From assembly GCF_029502005.1 (NCBI RefSeq), contig NZ_JAMQOT010000003.1, positions 357,571-421,570 on the forward strand: 64,000 bases of DNA. Direction: 5' to 3'. The notes under the pieces were generated by a model. The model was given only the letters and a program-made list of their open reading frames with translations. It made no database searches and had not been told where the DNA came from. This document shows positions 5,388 through 28,683 of this stretch, one piece after another. The DNA is from Natrinema salsiterrestre (GTDB lineage Archaea; Halobacteriota; Halobacteria; Halobacteriales; Natrialbaceae). How positions within the stretch are numbered: the stretch's first letter is position 1; every line of letters begins with the position of its first letter. The position numbers and the translations under genes were made by a program.

Positions 5388-8114
5388 TCACTCCTCGAGC
5401 AGCTGCTTCAACCGATCGAGTTCCGTCAGCGCTTCGACCGGCGTGAGGTGGGCGAGGTCGAGCGCACGGAGCTCCGCGGCCACGTCGGCGGGAATATCGC
5501 CGCCGTCCGCTGTCGCGGTCCCGGTTGTCTCCGCGCCGTGAGTCGGAGCGGGACTCGAGTCGGTGTCGGGGCCCTGATCGCCCTCTCCGGTCGACTCGAG
5601 GGCCTCCTCACCCGCGTCTGCGAGCAGTTCCCGCGAGCGCTCGACGACGGACTCGGGGACGCCGGCTGCGGTTGCGACCTCGACGCCGTAGGACCCCGTC
5701 GCCGCGCCGGGCGCGATCTCGTGGTGGAAGACGACTTCGTCGTCGTCCTGCTCGACCTCGAAGTGGAGGGTGAACGCGGCCGCGAGCTCGTCCGCGAGTT
5801 CGGTCAGCGGGTGGTGGTGGGTCGCGAACAGCGTCGTCGCGCCGACCTCGTCGTGGAGGTGTTCGGTGATCGCCTGCGCGATGGCCATTCCGTCGGCGGT
5901 CGACGTGCCTCGCCCGACTTCGTCCAGCAGGACGAGCGAGCGCTCGTCGGCCTCCCGTAGAATGGTCGCGAGTTCGTCCATCTCGACCATGAACGTCGAG
6001 CGGCCGCCCGCGATGTCGTCGCTCGCCCCGACGCGGGTGAAAATCCGATCGACCGGCGTGATTCGGGCGGCGCTGGCGGGAACGAAACTCCCGACCTGTG
6101 CCAGCAGGACGATCTGGGCGACCTGTCGCATGTACGTCGACTTCCCCGACATGTTCGGCCCCGTGATCACCGCCAGCCGCCGATCGCTCGCGAAGCGGGC
6201 GTCGTTCGGGACGAACGACTCCTGGGTGCGCTCGACGACGGGGTGGCGACCGCCCTCGATCTCGAGGGTCCGACTCCCGTCGCGCTCCCGTATCTCGGGC
6301 CGACAGTAGTCGTACTGGGCGGCGGCCGTCGCCAGCGAGACGAGGGCGTCGAGGGTCGCAAGTGCCTCGGCGAGGCCTTGTACGCGTTCGACCTCCGCTG
6401 CGATGTCGCGACGCACGTCGCAGAAGAGTTCGTACTCGCGTTCGTCCGCGCGCTCTTCCGCGCCGACGATCTCGTCTTCGCGTTCCTTGAGCTCCGGCGT
6501 GACGAACCGCTCCGAGTTCTTCAGGGTCTGGCGGCGCTGGTAGTCGTCGGGCACCGAGTCGAGGTTCGGATTCGTCACCTCGATGTAGTAGCCGTGAACC
6601 GAGTTGTAATCGACTTTCAGCGAACCGATCCCGGTGCGCTCGGCTTCGCTCTCCTCGAGGTCGTCGATCCACTGCTTACCCGCTCGCGCGGTCCGGCGGA
6701 GTTCGTCCAGATCCTCGTCGTAGCCCTCCGCGATGATGTCCCCCTCGGTGATCTCGATTGGGGGGTCGGAATCGATCGCGTCCTCGAGCAACTTGCGGAC
6801 GTCCGTCAGGGGATCGAGATCGTCGTGGAGCCGCTGCAGTCGGTCGCAGTCGGCGTCGGCGAGTTCCTCGCGAACGTCGGGCACCACCGCGAGGGTGTCC
6901 CGGAGCGAGCGGAGATCCCGCGCGTTCGCCCGTTCTCGGGAGATCCGTCCGATCAGTCGCTCGAGGTCGTAGACGCTCCGCAGGAGGTCGTGCAGTCGTT
7001 CACGGGTCTGGACCGCGCTCGTGAGCTCCTCGACGGCGTCCAGTCGCGCCTCGATCCGGTCGGGCTCGAGCAGCGGCCGCCGGAGCCAGTCGCGGAGTTT
7101 CCGGCCGCCCAGCGCGCTCGCCGTCTCGTCGAGGACGCCGACGAGCGTCGCCTCGTCCCGGCCGTGGACGGCGCGGGGTTCGAACAGCTCGAGGCTCCGC
7201 AGGGCGACGGCGTCCAACAGGAGGTACTCGCGGGGATCGTACCGCGTGAGGTGGGTGAGATACTCGAGGCGGGAGTCCCCGCCCGAATTCGCGGCCGCGT
7301 CTTCGTCGGCGTCCCTCGCGTCGCCGCGCTCGCCTTCGTGTGCGCCGCCGCGGACGTACTCCGCGTAGGAGAGCAACGCACCGCAGGCCCGAACCTCGGC
7401 GTCGCTCGCGAGCAGCGCGTCGGGATTGCGGAAGTACGTCGACAGCTTCTCCCCGGCCCCCTCGCGGTCGAACGCCCCTTCGTCGTACGGCGTGACCATA
7501 CAGTTTTCCGGGAGCACGTCGGCGGGCGCAGCCGGCCCGACGACGGCCTCCGCGGGAGCGAACCGGCTCACCTCGTCCGCGATGGCCTCCCTCGAGGTCG
7601 AACTCGTCGCGAGGAAGTCCCCGGTCGAGACGTCCAGCAGGGCCAGGGCGAGTTCGTCGTCCGCGCCGGCCGTGCGCTCGCGAGCGAGGGCGGCCACGAA
7701 GTTGTTGTCGTCGCTCGCGAGCAGTTCGTCCTCCGTGAGCGTTCCCGGCGTGATCACGCGCGTCACCGCACGCTCGACGACGCCCGACGTCTCACCCGGT
7801 TCCTCGACCTGGTCTGCTACCGCGACCCGATATCCCGCCTCGAGTAGCTCCTCGATGTACGATTCGGCGTTGTCGATCGGGATGCCGGCCATCGGGTACT
7901 CGCCGGTCGAGTCCTCGCGGCTGGTCAGGGCGATCTCGAGCAGGCGCGCGGTGCGTTCGGCCGCGCCGCAGAACGTCTCGTAAAAATCCCCCACCTGAAA
8001 CAGAACGATCGCGTCGTCGTAGCGCGCACAGAGGTCGTGGTACTGCGCCATCATCGGCGTCAGCTCGTCGCGTTTCTCGGCCATCCGCTCGGGCGGGCCA
8101 AGCGCCGGATCCAT
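5388..8114 (-). CDS. mutS: DNA mismatch repair protein MutS
   Basis: A 908-residue MutS1-type protein that recognises mismatches and small loops. The N-terminal mismatch-binding domain has the Phe-x-Glu motif in QVGDFYETF. Connector, lever and clamp regions follow. The ATPase has Walker A ([13 protein letters not shown]), Walker B ([17 protein letters not shown]) and the THHHPL switch. An acidic, low-complexity insertion lies near residue 840, before a C-terminal helix-turn-helix ([21 protein letters not shown] region). The ATG at 8114 is supported by a TATA-like element at 8138-8146; a second Met at 8084 is possible. No mutL is in the window. Confidence 0.97.
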
Positions 8115-15421: not shown

Positions 15422-18400
15422 TCACCGATCCTCCGATTCCGGTGAGGTACTGCCGAGCCCGCGGTCAGTATTCGAGGGCGACTCGCCATCGGAAACGGGT
15501 TTGTCGTCACCGCCGTTGTCGAACAGGTCGTTCGCGAGAGACTCGTGGCCCGTTTTTCGGAGACCGTGGTCGATGCGGATCACGAAATCGCCGGGATTCC
15601 TGACGGTGGCCGACGAGAGCGTGTCGGCGGCTTGGGAAACCGTTCGTTCCAGGGCGTTATCGTCCGGGAGCAGGCCCGCGTCGCTCGCGGCCCGGAGAGA
15701 CTCGGCTACGGCCTCAATGCACGCTTCGATCCGTATCCCGGGGCCGTGTCTCTTTGCGCCCTCGACGACTACGTCGGCGTAGAGGCCTTCCAGGAACGTC
15801 GCCGGCTCGTTCACGGACGGCCCCCTCGTGAATTCACGGAGTTCCGAATCGAGTTTCCGACGCCACTCGTCGGCACCGTCCTGAGCTGCGTCGAAGAGGG
15901 CTCGAGCGTACACGCCGGTGACGAATTCGGCCGGACGGTCCGGCACTTCCCTCGTCGCGGCCGCTTCGATCCCGGCACTAACGAGGTCGAACCACTCCTC
16001 CGTTTCCGAAACGTCGGTGTGGGTTCGACCGACCTGTGAGAGCGCCTCGGCATAGATCCGCTCGAAGATGTCTGCCCGCTCGAGGCCGACCCAGTCGAGC
16101 GAACACTCCCCGTCCAGGGCCGCCAGGACCTCGGTCACCCCGAACCGAACTTCCTCGGACCGGGCGTCGGCGGCGAGTGCGAGTGCACCGCCAAACACCG
16201 AGGCCACGTACACGACCGGATGCGGTGGATTGTCCTGGGCTGTCGCAGCCGCCCGGATCTGGGACAGCACTGCATCGACCACCCCTTCGTGTGTCCGTTC
16301 GCCGACGTCCGTCCGGGTCAACACTGCCGCCAAAATCTCGGCATCGATCGACGCGAACGCGTCGAACCAGTCCGTCTCGTCGCGCCCGTCGATGGACTCG
16401 CGACTGGTCCGAAACGACCGGACGAGCACCGTGATCCACTCCTGCGTGCGACTCGATTCCCCGTCAGCTGCCCACTCGACGGCGGCTCCGCCGTAGACCT
16501 CTGCGAGGAACTGAATCGGATCGTCGACCGCATCGGTCGTCGTGGCTCGCGTTTCGATCAGGTCCGTGAGCCCGCCGTACCAGGTGCGCTCCCCTCGTGG
16601 TGTCACTCCGTCGTTCGAATCGGGCCACTCGTCCGAATCGGGATCGAAGCCCCGTACGTGGGTAGACAGCGCCCCGCGGTAGACCTCCGTCAGATACTGC
16701 GTCGTCTCCGCGGTGGACGCATCGGACCCGACTCCCCGAGTCACGGACTCCTCGTACAGTTCCATCCAGTCCTCGAAGCCGAGGGAGTCCTCGAACGCGA
16801 TCGTGTCGCGACCGTAGGGGTACTGACCGACCGCGTCGGGAGAGTCCAACTCGACGTCGCCGAAGGCGGCGAGTCCCGTCGCGTGGAGAGCCGCTCGGCC
16901 GTCTCGCTCGTTTTCGAATCCGTCGGAACCGGCGATCGCATCAGCGAGCCGGTGACACTCGGCGAAGAACGGTTCCGCTCGGTCGAGCTCACCCGACTGG
17001 ACGACGACTCGAACCGTGTGGCCGTACGCCTCGAGGACGTACGTCTCGGGATCGCCGTCGAGTTCTACTGCTGTCGCTGTGTGGCGTACGCTCTGGCCGA
17101 CGGCCTCGAGGAGGGGACCGAACGCCTCGTCCGGACAGCCGTGCTCGAAGACCCACAGCCCGAGCCCTGCGACGTAGAGCTCTGTGAGCAGCGTCCGCCG
17201 ACTGTGCCGATCAGTGACGTCCTGAACTGCCTCCCTGGCTCTGGACTCGATATCGTGGACCCAGACCGACAACTCCTCGGTCGACCGCTCGACGCCTGCG
17301 ACTGCACCGAGCATGGACCCGAAACTGTTCCCGAGGGCGCTCGCCGTGTGGTGATCGTTGGCACTCATCGCGTACTGGCGAACGCGGGAAACGATGGTGG
17401 AGATGCCGCCGTTGGCCGCCTTCGGATCGTCGGCTCGTCGGACGATCTGGCCGACCGCGGCCCCGTAGACGAAGTGGAGCGGGAACTGCCACCCGTCGTC
17501 TACGATCGATGCGTGGAGGGCTTCGTCGACGCACCCGACCGCCCCGTGGTTCACGGCCGACCCGTCCGGCGGCTGAGCGAGCCGTGCCAGTGCGGCCGCG
17601 AACGCTGTCGCAAACGGTTCCAGGTCGCCGCCGACGGATTCCCGACCGGCGAACGGAGCGGCTGTTTCGTTCGTGACCTCGAGAACGCCGCGCGCGACCG
17701 CGTGGACCCACTCGTCAGTCCTCGGGTTCGCCCGTGCGACGGCTGCGATCGCAGTCTCGTAGACCTCGCCCCGGTACAGGAGGGACTCGTCCGAGTCGGC
17801 GGTTCGATTTCGCCCGACGTCGGTCACGAGGTCGTCGATGAACGAGAGCCACTGCTCGGCCGCGGCCGGCCCGTGCGTCGTCGAGATGACGTCGACGGCC
17901 TCGGCGACGACGGTCCCGACGAACTCGCCGTCCAGGGCGTGATCGGGAACGGCCGCGATCGCAGCCAGCGGGCTCTGATCCGTGACCGACTCGACGTCGA
18001 CCGACCGACGAGACGGCGACCGGATCTCGTTCCACCCGATCGCATCGAGCAGGTCGCGAGCGACGGTCGCCGGGTCTCGGTCGATATCGACGGTCGGATC
18101 TGCCAGCGAAAACTCGACGCGGTCGGTCCAGGCCGTCAATTCGTCACAGCCCGCCCGATCGGCGACGTCCTCGAGCCGCTCGCGGTTGGTGTCGTCACAG
18201 ATGAGCACCGCGCCCGCACAACTCCCGTCGCCGATCCACTCGGGGAGTGCCCGAACGCCGTCGTCGCCGTTGACGGCCGCCGGCTCGGCACCGTACGTTG
18301 CGACGACGATCGCGTTCGGCGTCGCCTCGATCCCCGTCCGGATGTGGTCGGGACGAGAGAGATCGGGAAGTGTGACGGTCGTTCCCCAGTCGTCGAGCTC

Positions 18401-19720
18401 CGAGGCGAGGGACGCGGCCAGTCGGCGTTTCCCGCTCGCCCTGGGACCGGAGAGGACGACCAGTCCCCCGTCGAGCGCCTCGAGGAGTTCGTCTCCGTCG
18501 ACGAGCGATCTCCAGTCCCGATTCGTCTCGTCGTCGGTGCCCTCGAGCTCACGAATCGGGTCCGGAAGCTCGCGCTCGACTGCGGCATCGTGTAACGCTT
18601 GCGGGCCGTCCCAGTGCCAGGAGCCGACGAGTGGCGAGGAGCCGTACTCTTCGGGTCCCACCGACATCGTTTCGAACGATGGACCTTCCGAGCTGAGCGC
18701 GTCCACTGCCTGCCCCATCACGTCACGCGCGGCATCGATCACCGACTCTTCGTCGTCGTCCTCGGCGAGTCGGTCGCGGATCAGTGCTCGCGCCGGATCG
18801 GCGGCGAACACGCGGAGGTGATCGATCGTTCCGGGCGGGAGATCCAGAGCGATCTCCAGTGCCTCGGCGGTCGTGGGGGGTGTCCGATACCGCGCGAGGG
18901 GCTCGAACCAGTCTGCGTCGTCTGCCACTCCGACGGCGACGAGCGCGACCGCGGCGAGGACCGCAGGCGATCGTTCGGTAGGGGTTCGACTCGGGAGGCC
19001 ACCGCTCGGGACGAGCGGCGAGACGACGTCCGCAAACGCCTCGCCGAACGGCCCGACCGAGACGTTACAGTCTCCGAACGCTCGCCTGACGTCGCCGGGC
19101 AGCAGTACGTCCGAGCCGTCGTATTTCGAGAGGGAGAGAAACGCTGCCGGCGTGACTGTCGCATCGTACCATCCCAGGTGTTGCTGAACCTCTGGGCCCT
19201 CGAAGTAGTATGGCGGATACCTGGCCCACTCCAGTACGGCCGCTCGCTCGTCGTCTCGTAGTCCGGACGGACTCCGTCGAGTGATGCGCTGTCGGACCTC
19301 GTCGATTGCGGCCGTGGCACCAACCGGCGGCGTTCGGACCGACAAAACGGTGTCGACCTTTTCGATGAATCTCTCGGAGACCCCGTGGTCGCTCCGACAG
19401 AGCCAGTCGAAACTCCGTGGACGGGTGATGATCACTGCACCCCCCGATCTGGTAAACAGCGACTTATCGCCGTACTCGTACGTGTAGGCTGCCAGCGTTC
19501 TGTCGTCGAGGTCGAACACTGCGGATACGAAATCCTCGACGATCACGAGTTCCCGATCGTCGACGGCGGTGACCTCGGGCAGTCGTTCGACTAACTGACC
19601 CAGCGATTGCAGGTGCCGTGACGTTCCGATACCGGGTGCACCGAGGACGAGGGTCACCCCACCCGATTCGACGGCGTCCGCCAGTTCGTCTGGTCTGACC
19701 TCCTGAATGTGAACTGTCAT
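15422..19720 (-). CDS. Giant protein: two degenerate P-loop modules plus helical repeats
   Basis: A 1432-residue acidic, cytoplasmic-looking protein not assigned to a named family. Module 1 (residues 1-130) has TLVLGAPGIGTS at 23-34, a Walker A lacking the Lys, then ELVIVED at 57-63 (Walker B-like) and GAVIITR at 94-100. Module 2 (400-540) has VVLSGPRASGKRR at 421-433, with the Lys but Arg in place of Ser/Thr, and AGAVLICDD at 502-510. From about residue 640 to 1345 there are ~50-residue helical repeats built on an F/Y-x3-V-Y-x2-A-L core. The plan resembles STAND-type sensors with a repeat ligand-binding end. A TATA-like ATTAAG element at 19803-19812 lies upstream. Confidence 0.8.
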   Translation of the reverse strand: MTVHIQEVRPDELADAVESGGVTLVLGAPGIGTSRHLQSLGQLVERLPEVTAVDDRELVIVEDFVSAVFDLDDRTLAAYTYEYGDKSLFTRSGGAVIITRPRSFDWLCRSDHGVSERFIEKVDTVLSVRTPPVGATAAIDEVRQRITRRSPSGLRDDERAAVLEWARYPPYYFEGPEVQQHLGWYDATVTPAAFLSLSKYDGSDVLLPGDVRRAFGDCNVSVGPFGEAFADVVSPLVPSGGLPSRTPTERSPAVLAAVALVAVGVADDADWFEPLARYRTPPTTAEALEIALDLPPGTIDHLRVFAADPARALIRDRLAEDDDEESVIDAARDVMGQAVDALSSEGPSFETMSVGPEEYGSSPLVGSWHWDGPQALHDAAVERELPDPIRELEGTDDETNRDWRSLVDGDELLEALDGGLVVLSGPRASGKRRLAASLASELDDWGTTVTLPDLSRPDHIRTGIEATPNAIVVATYGAEPAAVNGDDGVRALPEWIGDGSCAGAVLICDDTNRERLEDVADRAGCDELTAWTDRVEFSLADPTVDIDRDPATVARDLLDAIGWNEIRSPSRRSVDVESVTDQSPLAAIAAVPDHALDGEFVGTVVAEAVDVISTTHGPAAAEQWLSFIDDLVTDVGRNRTADSDESLLYRGEVYETAIAAVARANPRTDEWVHAVARGVLEVTNETAAPFAGRESVGGDLEPFATAFAAALARLAQPPDGSAVNHGAVGCVDEALHASIVDDGWQFPLHFVYGAAVGQIVRRADDPKAANGGISTIVSRVRQYAMSANDHHTASALGNSFGSMLGAVAGVERSTEELSVWVHDIESRAREAVQDVTDRHSRRTLLTELYVAGLGLWVFEHGCPDEAFGPLLEAVGQSVRHTATAVELDGDPETYVLEAYGHTVRVVVQSGELDRAEPFFAECHRLADAIAGSDGFENERDGRAALHATGLAAFGDVELDSPDAVGQYPYGRDTIAFEDSLGFEDWMELYEESVTRGVGSDASTAETTQYLTEVYRGALSTHVRGFDPDSDEWPDSNDGVTPRGERTWYGGLTDLIETRATTTDAVDDPIQFLAEVYGGAAVEWAADGESSRTQEWITVLVRSFRTSRESIDGRDETDWFDAFASIDAEILAAVLTRTDVGERTHEGVVDAVLSQIRAAATAQDNPPHPVVYVASVFGGALALAADARSEEVRFGVTEVLAALDGECSLDWVGLERADIFERIYAEALSQVGRTHTDVSETEEWFDLVSAGIEAAATREVPDRPAEFVTGVYARALFDAAQDGADEWRRKLDSELREFTRGPSVNEPATFLEGLYADVVVEGAKRHGPGIRIEACIEAVAESLRAASDAGLLPDDNALERTVSQAADTLSSATVRNPGDFVIRIDHGLRKTGHESLANDLFDNGGDDKPVSDGESPSNTDRGLGSTSPESEDR

Positions 19721-20654: not shown

Positions 20655-20785
20655 GATATATGAGTAACTATTAATCTGAGAATAATAAATTCACCTTCCT
20701 GAATCGATGGCATCGAATTCCCGAGCGATGATTGTAACCTCCGATAGAAATCCGTGTCCGGCGACCTACTGCTCCACACCGCTAC

Positions 20786-21637
20786 CTACGCACGGTATCC
20801 GGAGAGCGATTTCCGAGACAGGGTCGGCGTATCGAGAACGGCGATGGCAATCGCAGCAGCGCCGAACGCGAGCACGCCGGCAGCACCCACGGGACTTGCG
20901 ACCAGTTCCTCCAGAACCGCCTCGTCCGCGGTCGCGTACACGACGACGAGACCGGCCGACCCGTTGAACACACCGTGGAGAAGCGCTGCGGCGAGCACGG
21001 ACTTGGCACGGACGACGACGTAGGTGTAGACCGGTGAAAAGGAGAGACACGCGATCGTCATGGCGAGAACACCGATATAGGGGAACGAGGGGTAGTTGTA
21101 TCCGGCGACGATCACGGGCGTATGCCAGATGCCCCACAGGGCACCGATCGCGAACGACGCCTTCCAGAACCCCCACGGTGCGAGTTCCCACAGGAGGTAG
21201 CCGCGCCAGCCGAACTCCTCGCCGAACGCGAAGATCGCATTGATCGTGGCCCCGAGGACGAGCGCAAGGCCGGCCGCTACCGCGACGCCAAGGAGGCCCG
21301 ACGGTAGCTCGAGGCCCGGAACCGGGGTGGCGGTCGGATCGAAGTCTACCCCGGGGACTGCGAGGGCGAACGCGAGGGTCAGACCGATGAGCGGCAGCGC
21401 GAGCACGGCAGCTATGGCGAGCCATCGGAGCCGGCCCCGTCGAAGCCCGACGTCCGACAGTGGGATATCCCGAGAGAGGCAGACTGCGAGGCCAGCGACC
21501 ATCGGTGAGAACATGTAGGCCGGTGCGAGTGCAATCGGGCTCACGTCCACACTGGCTGCGATGATGACGAGTGCCACGGCAGCGACGAGCAAAATACCGA
21601 CGAAGAGTCCGATCCGACTCCTATCGGGATCAGTCAT
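20786..21637 (-). CDS. CPBP family intramembrane metalloprotease
   Basis: A 283-residue multi-pass membrane protein of the CPBP (CAAX protease/bacteriocin-processing) family. The three hallmark motifs are present: FGEEFGWRGYL (EExxxR), the FAIGALWGIWHTP motif with the second-motif His, and ALLHGVFN (HxxxN). Such proteins act as membrane proteases or as self-immunity factors against peptide toxins. The start at 21637 (MTDPDRSRIGLFVG) is preferred over 21679, as it places the first helix near the N terminus. Upstream lies a shared AT-rich region with the Mrr-like gene. Confidence 0.92.
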   Translation of the reverse strand: MTDPDRSRIGLFVGILLVAAVALVIIAASVDVSPIALAPAYMFSPMVAGLAVCLSRDIPLSDVGLRRGRLRWLAIAAVLALPLIGLTLAFALAVPGVDFDPTATPVPGLELPSGLLGVAVAAGLALVLGATINAIFAFGEEFGWRGYLLWELAPWGFWKASFAIGALWGIWHTPVIVAGYNYPSFPYIGVLAMTIACLSFSPVYTYVVVRAKSVLAAALLHGVFNGSAGLVVVYATADEAVLEELVASPVGAAGVLAFGAAAIAIAVLDTPTLSRKSLSGYRA

Positions 21638-21855: not shown

Positions 21856-22851
21856 ATGGATACGGGAGCCGCGATGTCTTCTATTCTGCAGACCCTCCAG
21901 CAGTTGGACGGTCACGAGTTCGAGCGGTTCATCGCTGATCTCTGGTCTCGCCGCGGGTGGTCCACCGAGGTGACGACCCAATCGGGCGACAAAGGGATCG
22001 ACGTTATCGCCACGAAAGCGTTCCCGTATCCGAAGAAGAGCCTCATCCAGACGAAGCGATATCGGGATAGCAATTCCGTCTCCGGGCCCGAGCTACAAAA
22101 ATACGCCTCGCTAAAGCAGCGGGAGAACGTCGACGAAGTCGTCATCATCACGACGAGCGGATTCACCAATCAGGCCGACGTCATCGCCGACGATTTCAAC
22201 ATCAAGTTGATAGATGGGGAAACGCTGCAGCGATTAGTCGGAGAGATGGCCGCCGAAGACCTCGTCGCGACCTACGCAGACGGGAACGAAATCTCGGATC
22301 GGGCGTACACCGGAACCATCAGCGCATTCGAATCCACGCCTCCGACGACTATCGTCGCCGAGTGTGACCTCTTCAGGGCGGAGCTCGTCGGATACGAGTG
22401 GGTGACGTCGTCGGACCCGGCCGTGAGACGGCCGAGCGAATTCGACGGACCGTTCTTCGCGTTCGAATTCACGAACCTCGTCGATTACGATCTCTCCCTG
22501 CACCCGTGGGAGGATTTCACCGTCTCCGACGACCGCGGCCGAACGTACACCCAAGCGATGCGATTCTCGAGGAACAGCTATTTTCCGGGCGACTGGCAAG
22601 TCAAACAGCCGATAATTCCAGCTGCGGGGAACGCCAAATTCGCGTTCTACGTCGACGGCGTCGCGGGCGACGTCTCCGGCGTCCGATTCCGAAACAATAC
22701 GCACCTGCTGCTCGACGATTACGACCGGGAATCGGACGAGTTCTCCACGGCGGACTTGCTGCGGAAGGTGGAGTGGATGATGTACCTCTCCGACGAGCGG
22801 AAGGCGGAGATCCCGGACCTCCCACCGGAACTGGCGGCCGCCGTTACCTGA
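21856..22851 (+). CDS. Mrr-like restriction endonuclease fused to a C-terminal beta domain
   Basis: A 331-residue protein. Residues 10-130 form a restriction-endonuclease fold of the Mrr family: the FERFIADLWSRRGW helix, GDKGIDVI (catalytic Asp 49) and SLIQTKRY (Gln 65-x-Lys 67, the QxK variant usual for Mrr). Residues 150-285 look like a beta-sandwich of the DUF4352 type. A helical tail follows. It may cleave modified or foreign DNA, with the fused domain giving binding or control. No methyltransferase is adjacent, which fits a type IV (modification-dependent) enzyme. A later Met at 21874 is an alternative start. Confidence 0.8.
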   Translation: MDTGAAMSSILQTLQQLDGHEFERFIADLWSRRGWSTEVTTQSGDKGIDVIATKAFPYPKKSLIQTKRYRDSNSVSGPELQKYASLKQRENVDEVVIITTSGFTNQADVIADDFNIKLIDGETLQRLVGEMAAEDLVATYADGNEISDRAYTGTISAFESTPPTTIVAECDLFRAELVGYEWVTSSDPAVRRPSEFDGPFFAFEFTNLVDYDLSLHPWEDFTVSDDRGRTYTQAMRFSRNSYFPGDWQVKQPIIPAAGNAKFAFYVDGVAGDVSGVRFRNNTHLLLDDYDRESDEFSTADLLRKVEWMMYLSDERKAEIPDLPPELAAAVT

Positions 22852-26745: not shown

Positions 26746-27216
26746 TCAGTCGACCGATTCGAACCCCCACGCCTCGAGTCGGTCGACGACTTCGTCGACG
26801 TTGTGCATCGCCGCTTCGTAGGCTGCCTCCCGGACGTCGGTCTTCGACACGTCGGTTCCGAGTTCGTCACCCACTGCATCGACGAACTCGTCCTCCGCTT
26901 CGAGCACGAAATCCCGGAGATAGAACTGGACCATTTCGCGGTCCTGTTTGACGGTATCTCGGACGTAGACCCACGGAACGCCGCTATCGGTAGCGCCGTC
27001 CTGTGGCGGCTCCCCGACGATCGCCTCGGCCGACTGCTCTTCACTGTTAGCGGTTTGACCACCGTCGTCGGCAGTCTCCCCTCGAGTCGTTCCGTCCTCG
27101 GTATCAGAGCGAGGCGGCTCAGTATCCGATCCGTCGCCGGACTGAGACGCTTCGTCCGCGTCATCGGCCTCGTCTCGTGCATCCGCGAACGGATCGCTAC
27201 CGGATCCCTTCTTCAT
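26746..27216 (-). CDS. ParA-associated small acidic protein (putative partition partner)
   Basis: A 156-residue protein starting at an ATG that overlaps the parA stop by 4 bp (ATGA at 27213-27216), so the two are translationally coupled. Residues 1-80 are a disordered, highly acidic Ser/Asp/Glu region. Residues 85-156 look helical and contain QDREMVQFYLRDFVLEAEDE and VSKTDVREAAYEAAMHNVD. No ParB-type helix-turn-helix is obvious. By position it should be the adaptor or centromere-binding partner. The frame ends just before the decayed region. Confidence 0.8.
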   Translation of the reverse strand: MKKGSGSDPFADARDEADDADEASQSGDGSDTEPPRSDTEDGTTRGETADDGGQTANSEEQSAEAIVGEPPQDGATDSGVPWVYVRDTVKQDREMVQFYLRDFVLEAEDEFVDAVGDELGTDVSKTDVREAAYEAAMHNVDEVVDRLEAWGFESVD

Positions 27217-28055
27217 TGCTCACTCACCTCCTCGATTTCGGTCGCCAGCCGGTCGATTTTGTCGAGGGTTTCGCTCTCGTGATCGCGTCGTCGGTCGCGG
27301 TGTTCCTCGACGTAGTATCGCGGTGTACACTGCTGATCCCAGCAGCCCTCGAAGAGCGATGATCGCTCGCGGATCGCGACCGGCGCGGGATAGCCCCGAT
27401 CGCGAATTTCGGTCAGATATCTGTCCTGGTCGGACGTCCTACCGATACCGTTCGGAACGGCCGAGAGGACACCGATTTCGGCCTCCAGTCGCTCCTGAAG
27501 CCCGTCGACCAGCTCCTCCAACCCGAGAACGCTTTGCATTCCCTTGCCGGTCGGCTCGACCGGGATCACCAGACTTCGGGTGGCCGAGACGGCGTTGTAG
27601 AGATGCGGGCCCGCCGTCGCCGGCGGATCGACGACGAGGACGTCGTACTCCTGTGGGACGCCGGACTCGAGGAGCACCTGCCGGAGGCGGTCGTACGGGT
27701 CGAAGTCGTCACCCTCGCCGAGATCGTCGGCCATCTGCTGTGCGCGATTGAGGAGGTCTTCGAGGCTCTCGAGCATGTTGTGACTGGGGATGAGGTCGAA
27801 GCCGTACTCCGTTTCGTAAATGAGATCCTCGAGTGACCCTTTCGGTCGATCGATCAGGTGGCGAACGATGTTATCCGCTTGACTGTCGTCACGGGGTGCA
27901 TCGATATCGAGGAGGTAGGTGAGCGACCCGTTCTGTTGGTCCATATCGATCGCGAGAACGTCGAGCCCGTGGTTCGAGTGGGACTCGAGCAACGCCGCGC
28001 CGATCGTCGACTTGCCGACGCCGCCGGCCTCCGAGTACGTCGTGTACGTGAGCAT
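27213..28055 (-). CDS. parA: ParA-type partition ATPase
   Basis: A 280-residue MinD/ParA-family ATPase. The P-loop reads SEAGGVGKSTIGAALL. It lacks the signature Lys of the deviant Walker A (KGGxGKT), here an Ala, while the catalytic Lys and Ser/Thr are kept. Walker A' is LDVLAIDMDQQNGSLTYLL and Walker B is VLVVDPPATAG. Leaderless start at 28055: a TATA element (AATATAATA, 28077-28085) lies 22-30 nt upstream. Partner gene overlaps downstream. The 13-bp iterons upstream make this a typical type Ib-like partition system of a haloarchaeal replicon. Confidence 0.93.
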   Translation of the reverse strand: MLTYTTYSEAGGVGKSTIGAALLESHSNHGLDVLAIDMDQQNGSLTYLLDIDAPRDDSQADNIVRHLIDRPKGSLEDLIYETEYGFDLIPSHNMLESLEDLLNRAQQMADDLGEGDDFDPYDRLRQVLLESGVPQEYDVLVVDPPATAGPHLYNAVSATRSLVIPVEPTGKGMQSVLGLEELVDGLQERLEAEIGVLSAVPNGIGRTSDQDRYLTEIRDRGYPAPVAIRERSSLFEGCWDQQCTPRYYVEEHRDRRRDHESETLDKIDRLATEIEEVSEQ

Positions 28056-28064
28056 GCGTATGGG

Positions 28065-28085
28065 TTAGCCTTCCCGAATATAATA
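28065..28085 (-). promoter_or_regulatory. parA promoter with overlapping iteron operator
   Basis: The minus-strand TATA element at 28077-28085 is the only good promoter near the parA start. One iteron-like unit (TTAGCCTTCCCGA, 28065-28077) lies between it and the start codon, so a protein bound there would block transcription. It is in 13-bp register with the next unit at 28104 (39 bp on). This suggests self-regulation by the partition complex. Confidence 0.6.
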
Positions 28086-28683
28086 CTTCACCACACGTAT
28101 TGGGTAGGAAAATCAGTTAGCCTAACCGAATAGGCTAACCGCCTGCTTCGGTATTCGTGTCGCTGTGGGGGGTAAGCTGCTCGAGCACGGTTCTCACCTC
28201 GCATAGAGAAATAACGAGTCGAATAGGCTTTCTAGTTAGCCTAACTGAATAGTGTTAGTAGAAAACCGAACCTGTAGTTGGGAGACGGATCGGACTGGGA
28301 GGGCACGCGAGCAGTCGACGCGGATAGTTCGCTCACATCTTCGGACTATCTCAGCAGACTATTCGATCAGTTTGGCTGGGAAGTACAATTGGGTAGCTAT
28401 CTCACATGGCCTATTCGAACAGCCTAACTAAACGGCCTGATTAATAGGGCGGGGGCCGCGAGCTTTTGTTCCTCACACAAGTATGTCTACTAGAAGGTCT
28501 AATCGAGTAGACTAGCTACATAGACTAACTAAATGGGCTTCTTAGAATGATGGATCGGTAGTGTTGCGTACGAAATCACGTCAGAGAGCCGTTCGGATAC
28601 CTTCCCTTCGCCGACCAATACAGCGACGATGAACGGCTATTCGAATAGCCTAACCGAACAGCCTAACTACATAGACTAATCAC
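28065..28683. repeat. 13-bp iteron array (candidate centromere) of the partition locus
   Basis: Units of 13 bp with the consensus A-T/C-A-G-N-CTAA-C/T-C/T-N-A occur in clusters: 28065; 28104-28142; 28223-28261; 28341-28366; 28393-28444; 28481-28545; 28632-28683. About 22 units can be counted, some degenerate. The core is CTAAC. Examples are TTAGCCTAACCGA (28117-28129) and ACAGCCTAACTAA (28419-28431). Within a cluster the units are directly abutting, in the same orientation. A 9-bp inverted repeat (GTTAGCCTA/TAGGCTAAC, 28116-28139) also occurs. No open frame interrupts the array. It is probably the parS/centromere, or the origin iterons, of a once-independent replicon. Confidence 0.85.

Follow-up and report, generated by a model that had tools for sequence, protein, structure and literature searches.

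Can a single iteron unit inside the parA promoter of a haloarchaeal operon serve as the operator through which a partition system restrains its own synthesis? The window analysed here, 64,000 nucleotides of the Natrinema salsiterrestre genome, contains a gene for a small ParA ATPase, an overlapping downstream gene for a partner predicted to be a ribbon–helix–helix (RHH) protein and, upstream, an array of palindromic units with a 13-bp period that we take as a putative parS (Table 1). One further unit, TTAGCCTTCCCGA, stands at 28065–28077 in the promoter itself. The initial annotation had suggested that a partner able to bind iterons would repress its own operon. Our comparisons lead to a closely related reading, to which we assign a probability of roughly 0.7: in a system like type Ib and SegAB, the unit would be an operator for autorepression that lies within the parS array, and through it the partner would presumably couple partition and expression.

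Table 1. Positions of the operon, its promoter elements and the upstream array units in the window
Feature	Position	Strand	Basis
Partner gene, 156 aa	26746..27216	-	start overlaps parA stop (ATGA)
parA, 280 aa, ParA-type ATPase	27213..28055	-	Pfam AAA_31 and CbiA
Promoter-embedded iteron unit, putative operator	28064..28077	-	9.8 bits; -19..-9 in 20/20 promoters
TATA element of the parA promoter (TATTATATT)	28077..28085	-	sequence; block conserved across promoters
BRE-like GTGAAG, preceding the TATA element	28086..28091	-	sequence
Degenerate unit slot (-58), the 28104 unit	28103..28113	.	<6.5 bits; good unit in several orthologs
Proximal array, units 28116-28126 (16.5 bits) and 28129-28139 (13.9 bits)	28116..28139	.	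13-bp phase with putative operator
Array units 28222-28232 and 28235-28245	28222..28245	.	motif score
Array unit	28418..28428	.	motif score
Three weaker tandem units 28493, 28506, 28519 (7.3-7.6 bits)	28493..28529	.	motif score
Three tandem units 28644, 28657, 28670, distal array end	28644..28680	.	motif score

The ParA ATPase and its predicted partner

The P-loop of ParA, AGGVGKS, occupies residues 10–16 (window 28008–28028), so close to the start that an N-terminal HTH domain would not fit. In place of the signature lysine of the deviant Walker A motif (KGGxGKT/S) it has an alanine, which is invariant in 12 aligned relatives.

The partner, which 27 of 30 listed plasmid records call a 'hypothetical protein', matches no family in Pfam or NCBIfam and has no credible relative among PDB sequences; SegB was not named among the PDB sequence matches of its profile at E ≤ 10, in a copy of the PDB that may not contain SegB. 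A structural model based on 49 aligned sequences (4 of 53 rows were left out) has helices at 102–119, 125–138 and 140–149 following a helix-free stretch, with no strand in the monomer; the N terminus is modelled at low confidence and the C-terminal domain alone reaches a mean pLDDT of 90. Structural comparison with VIA-align placed the model closest to the CopG–DNA complex (Z 4.5, r.m.s.d. 1.4 over 42/42 residues), with TraM (Z 4.4) and 1myl (Z 3.9), which we take to be the Arc repressor, in the next rows, and the C-terminal domain model closest to TraM (Z 4.5) and CopG (Z 4.1). These Z-scores lie below the secure level of the tool, with non-RHH rows (TCP domain, NE0241) close behind, and a Foldseek search with the partner models returned nothing at E ≤ 0.001. 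ParG, Omega and SegB were not named among the VIA-align rows, by which none of them is excluded. From the models, we predict that the C-terminal domain adopts an RHH fold. The N-terminal peptide MKKGSGSDPF (window 27187–27216), whose residues K2 and G4 do not vary among the 49 aligned sequences, precedes the low-confidence stretch and is possibly a ParA-contacting peptide.

Elsewhere in the window, two minus-strand open reading frames of 1,432 aa (15422–19720) and 219 aa (20766–21425) have no Pfam or NCBIfam match; both lie near a gene for an Mrr-type restriction endonuclease (21856–22851).

The promoter unit and its register with the array

Read on the strand of parA, the promoter sequence is GTGAAGTATTATATTCGGGAAGGCTAACCCATACGC-ATG, which can be set beside the haloarchaeal BRE (CGAAA) and TATA (TTWT) elements given in the source account (PMC4983044). 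The TATA element is centred about 26 bp from the ATG, a distance from which we infer a leaderless parA start and which fits the 72% of protein-coding transcripts of Haloferax volcanii reported there as leaderless. The placement of the iteron unit between the TATA element and the start codon, as originally described, holds in sequence and coordinates, and its palindromic core spans 28064–28074. The two elements had been said to abut; they are indeed adjacent and in fact overlap by one base, 28077 being common to both.

The unit differs from TTAGCCTWACCGA at one position, and matches with at most one mismatch number four in the 64 kb (28065, 28117, 28236 and 28645). When up to three mismatches are allowed, the 64-kb count is not significant (14 versus 10.75 expected, a number reached by 20 of 100 shuffles), so the case for the unit rests on clustering, position and conservation. 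A motif was trained on 13 related loci, from −450 to −48 only and with the promoter unit thereby excluded. The motif learned is an imperfect palindrome, gtTAGnCTAac, most commonly spaced at 13 bp. Against it the promoter unit scores 9.8 bits, a value reached at 2 of 63,318 positions elsewhere in the window, or about 7 × 10^-4 per promoter-sized interval. Array units reach up to 16.5 bits, and one half-site of the promoter unit is degenerate; this weakness counts against reading it as an operator.

The 13-bp register that had been claimed between the unit and the array is borne out, the first good array unit (28116–28126) lying four units, or 52 bp, away. The neighbour proposed at 39 bp, at 28104, is likewise in register but is not a good unit, being degenerate in this genome (below 6.5 bits).

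Conservation was assessed in 20 same-clade promoters: that of the window, those of 12 of 80 haloarchaeal loci and those of 7 of 11 further same-clade loci (L049, L050, L051 and L055 were omitted as the same records as L110, L068, L069 and L070). The unit is found at −19 to −9 in all 20, with the CTAAC half invariant. Information content averages 1.72 bits per column in the TATA block (−33 to −20) and 1.70 in the unit, versus 0.70 in the 8 bases before the ATG. Scores of the unit range from 3.0 to 10.4 bits across the clade, in every promoter below the best array unit. A site at −71 is in 13-bp phase with the unit in 20 of 20 promoters and sites at −84 or −58, where present, are also multiples of 13 bp from it, while more distal array units are usually out of phase. 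The −71 site keeping phase as the distal units drift points to a fixed block of array, BRE, TATA element and unit in which the BRE and TATA element fill two slots. Because the spacing is inherited, it counts as one observation within the clade.

Conserved bases at this position could simply belong to the basal promoter, as a −10 'WW' element or the initially melted region, with the likeness to the iteron partly coincidental. The TAA at about −11 could serve as the WW element that the account of PMC4983044 proposes for haloarchaea, and the half-degenerate iteron match would fit this idea. The conserved stretch GAAGRCTAAC, however, extends beyond any AA, and in several clusters whose iterons differ from this one, the core of the cluster's own iteron is present on that side of the TATA element (below), which together leave us regarding a basal-promoter origin as very unlikely.

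Arrays and promoters across the ParA family

For a wider comparison, 80 haloarchaeal loci, the best 3 of 80 viral loci (52% identity; the other 77, at 30% or less, were left out) and the window were grouped into 18 clusters at 75% ParA identity. Among lags of 5–45 upstream of parA, 48 of 83 sequences have 13 as the best lag, and 64 have 13, 26 or 39 (one of the 84 sequences was too short). When each cluster is represented by a single sequence, these counts become 7 and 11 of 17. In the same loci, a lag of 13 is best in 0/83 cases inside parA and in 2/77 far upstream. The iterons themselves vary by cluster, and include TTAGNCTAA, TAGTNNNACTA, TCTWAGA, TATAGCTATA and GTTCATT, among others.

Against this diversity, the interval after the TATA element fits the array of its own cluster over those of other clusters (permutation P = 5 × 10^-5, at most 4 members per cluster). 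The fit persists at −25 to −1, with the TATA element cut off (P = 5 × 10^-4), and in that interval without the clade of the window and clusters 1, 9, 14 and 16 (P = 0.0025); a far-upstream control gives P = 0.23. An earlier motif search with weak priors had yielded poor motifs (matched P = 2.5 × 10^-4, far-upstream control 0.07) and was replaced. By cluster, the fit is strong in 0, 5, 8, 11, 14 and 15, whereas clusters 17 and 9 show a fair one; a post-TATA unit of the cluster's own type is essentially absent from 3, 7, 10 and 13, with a weak one in six more. In clusters 11 and 14 the signal disappears once the bases overlapping the TATA element are cut. The interval from −48 to −26 likewise fits its own array (P = 7 × 10^-4). 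Given this upstream fit and the clusters that lack a unit, the feature is neither universal nor limited to the post-TATA side; sites over parA promoters do recur among the clusters.

This pooled signal on the BRE/TATA side, together with the register of the promoter unit, is also what would be seen if the unit were only the promoter-proximal end of parS, helping to assemble the partition complex without regulating anything itself, such that whatever repression occurs would follow incidentally from occupancy of the array upstream of the TATA element. A unit with a purely centromeric role would not have to keep this position, yet this one is fixed between the TATA element and the start in 20 of 20 promoters as the distal units shift, and we consider it unlikely that parS function alone accounts for it.

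As phases are mixed among clusters, we assert strict register for no more than the clade of the window and cluster 11. In cluster 11 (iteron TCTTAGA), 39 bp separate the last array unit from the post-TATA unit in 4 of 5 members; the exception is the viral locus L149, which has no post-TATA unit. The phase of the best post-TATA site was determined in 12 of 18 clusters. Relative to the nearest units it is 0 in clusters 0, 11 and 2 (the match in cluster 2 being poor, at 0.7 bits). Cluster 5 has mostly 9, cluster 8 has 9 relative to its three nearest units, cluster 15 has 0, 8 or 9, cluster 14 has 8 or 4, cluster 17 has mostly 5, and clusters 4, 6, 7 and 9 have various values. Separately, a GTCTGAC block sits directly upstream of the BRE/TATA region, at about −45 to −36 from the parA ATG (loci L085–L149); it occurs in many parA promoters of other clusters, independent of iteron type.

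Partner and iteron also show signs of changing together. Over 16 clusters (cluster 1, with an unlike partner, and cluster 13, with no partner by the rule used, were left out), similarity in the predicted DNA-contacting strand of the partner covaries modestly with that of the iteron (r = 0.26, Mantel P = 0.037), compared with P = 0.31 for the rest of the partner domain and a weak correlation for ParA similarity (P = 0.046). The motifs used were those of the short region, which are noisy for clusters 2, 7, 8 and 10.

Within the Natrinema salsiterrestre genome, four of six ParA matches were compared, that of the window and those on contigs C6, C27 and C1 (55, 50 and 38% identity), the other two being weaker matches on C3 and C2. 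The four systems have four different iteron arrays, all with a best lag of 13 (z = 3.8, 2.3, 6.1 and 7.4). When the four post-TATA intervals are matched to the four arrays, the correct pairing ranks 1 of 24 by total fit; row by row, the own array wins in two of four cases, ties in one and loses in one.

Sites resembling the array also occur far from it. We searched for paired TTAGNCTAA cores at a 13-bp distance, with at most one mismatch; the pattern was found in 11 of 29 genus genomes, and its reversed control in none. In the 25 genomes that were also searched for the partner, matches occur in 9 of the 15 where a close one (E < 1 × 10^-30) is present versus 0 of the 10 where it is not (Fisher P = 0.0024); G043 and G044, which also have matches, fall outside that set. 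Some matches are arrays adjoining parA, and others are isolated pairs. In the present genome, an isolated two-unit tandem lies outside the window at C21:438419–438440 (L042 about 6420–6441), 52.7 kb from the array and downstream of a gene whose product is an archaea-specific SMC-related protein, and the relative G010 has an isolated pair at a similar distance from its array. In G044, about 0.8 kb separate an isolated two-unit site (L242 1501–1522) from an orc1/cdc6 gene. A pair in G015 (L243) adjoins a right-hand neighbour gene like that of the G044 site.

A putative operator within parS and its known counterparts

In these comparisons, the unit is a conserved component of the promoter, falls within the motif family of the array and, in several related systems, varies along with it. 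The fold predicted for the partner, RHH, is that of the class that includes the known centromere-binding autorepressors. Its conservation, its membership of the array motif family, the own-array fit and the predicted RHH partner are together best explained if it is an operator. We propose that the array runs through the promoter, with sites at −84, −71 and −58 (degenerate here), the BRE and TATA element in two 13-bp slots and then the unit at −19. The partner would bind the array to form the partition complex and, once abundant enough, would also fill the weaker promoter unit, presumably after the array. Partner bound there would block RNA polymerase between the TATA element and the start site, and this block would lower the synthesis of both partner and ParA.

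A bound unit might instead activate parA or be needed for its expression (positive autoregulation), or another regulator that shares the motif might bind it. In archaeal transcription, however, a site between the TATA element and the start is classically occluding, and the motif changes together with the cognate system; we hold these possibilities to be extremely unlikely.

The autorepression proposed above can be extended to a scheme that we offer only tentatively and, taken as a whole, regard as doubtful. In it, the promoter would be built into the centromere and partner dimers would occupy the strong array before they reach the promoter unit, the last to be filled, such that the operon senses free partner per array copy and matches the level of segregation proteins to replicon copy number in polyploid haloarchaea; co-resident systems would be kept apart by their iterons. 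A few distal two-unit sites (at the SMC-like gene here and at orc1/cdc6 in a relative) would extend the reach of the partner over the replicon.

Among the titles and abstract openings listed from the open-licence literature searched, none describes a haloarchaeal ParA/RHH system with 13-bp iterons. For the partitioning of multiple large replicons in haloarchaea, our analysis offers a concrete rule in which a predicted RHH partner is paired with 13-bp iterons that come in many specificities, and four systems with four iterons in one genome make direct tests of specificity and compatibility possible. It also offers a precise putative operator, mutation of which would test autoregulation, a point left undetermined for SegAB in the account of PMC12284271. 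Bacterial RHH partition proteins that bind over their own promoters and a SegB site just upstream of segA are known precedents.

The closest archaeal comparison is with SegAB of the Sulfolobales, described as an ATPase (SegA) with an RHH protein (SegB) that has a site just upstream of segA; feedback is suspected, with repression left undetermined in these accounts (PMC12284271, PMC5120986). The overlapping gene pair and the RHH partner, predicted here, are shared features. Unlike SegAB, the system described here has a palindromic unit at −19 to −9 with the consensus gtTAGnCTAac, versus the SegB motif TCTAGASTCTAGA, and its putative binding sites form upstream tandem 13-bp arrays with few distal pairs, whereas SegAB sites are many and scattered over the chromosome. 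Several iteron specificities within one genome are a further difference.

Among bacterial systems, RHH ParB proteins are reported to control their own genes via parS sites that overlap their promoters (PMC9499535), and type-Ib ParA proteins are described as lacking an HTH domain and hence repressor function (PMC9178275). Delta/Omega of pSM19035 and ParFGH of TP228 resemble the present system in their small HTH-less ParA, RHH partner (again, predicted here) and promoter repeats; control of expression by the RHH protein, reported for both (PMC9499535, PMC9178275), is what we propose here. They differ in having a bacterial rather than an archaeal BRE/TATA promoter, and the 13-bp palindromic units differ from the 7-bp heptads of Omega. 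In addition, the ParA here is without the signature lysine, as is one member of the type-Ib table in PMC9178275 (McdA, SGGQGKT), and no sequence similarity to the partner was found in the PDB. Type-Ia parA operons such as those of P1 and F are likewise described as autoregulated at the promoter (PMC9178275), as proposed here; there, the HTH domain of ParA is the repressor, in contrast to a ParA with its P-loop at residues 10–16. The present system shares with type Ib a small ParA that has no N-terminal HTH domain and an upstream 13-bp repeat array as putative centromere, and departs from it at the deviant Walker A motif (AGGVGKS). As the signature lysine is missing and the iteron is unlike the SegB consensus, we describe the system as one that works like type Ib and SegAB, and file it under neither.
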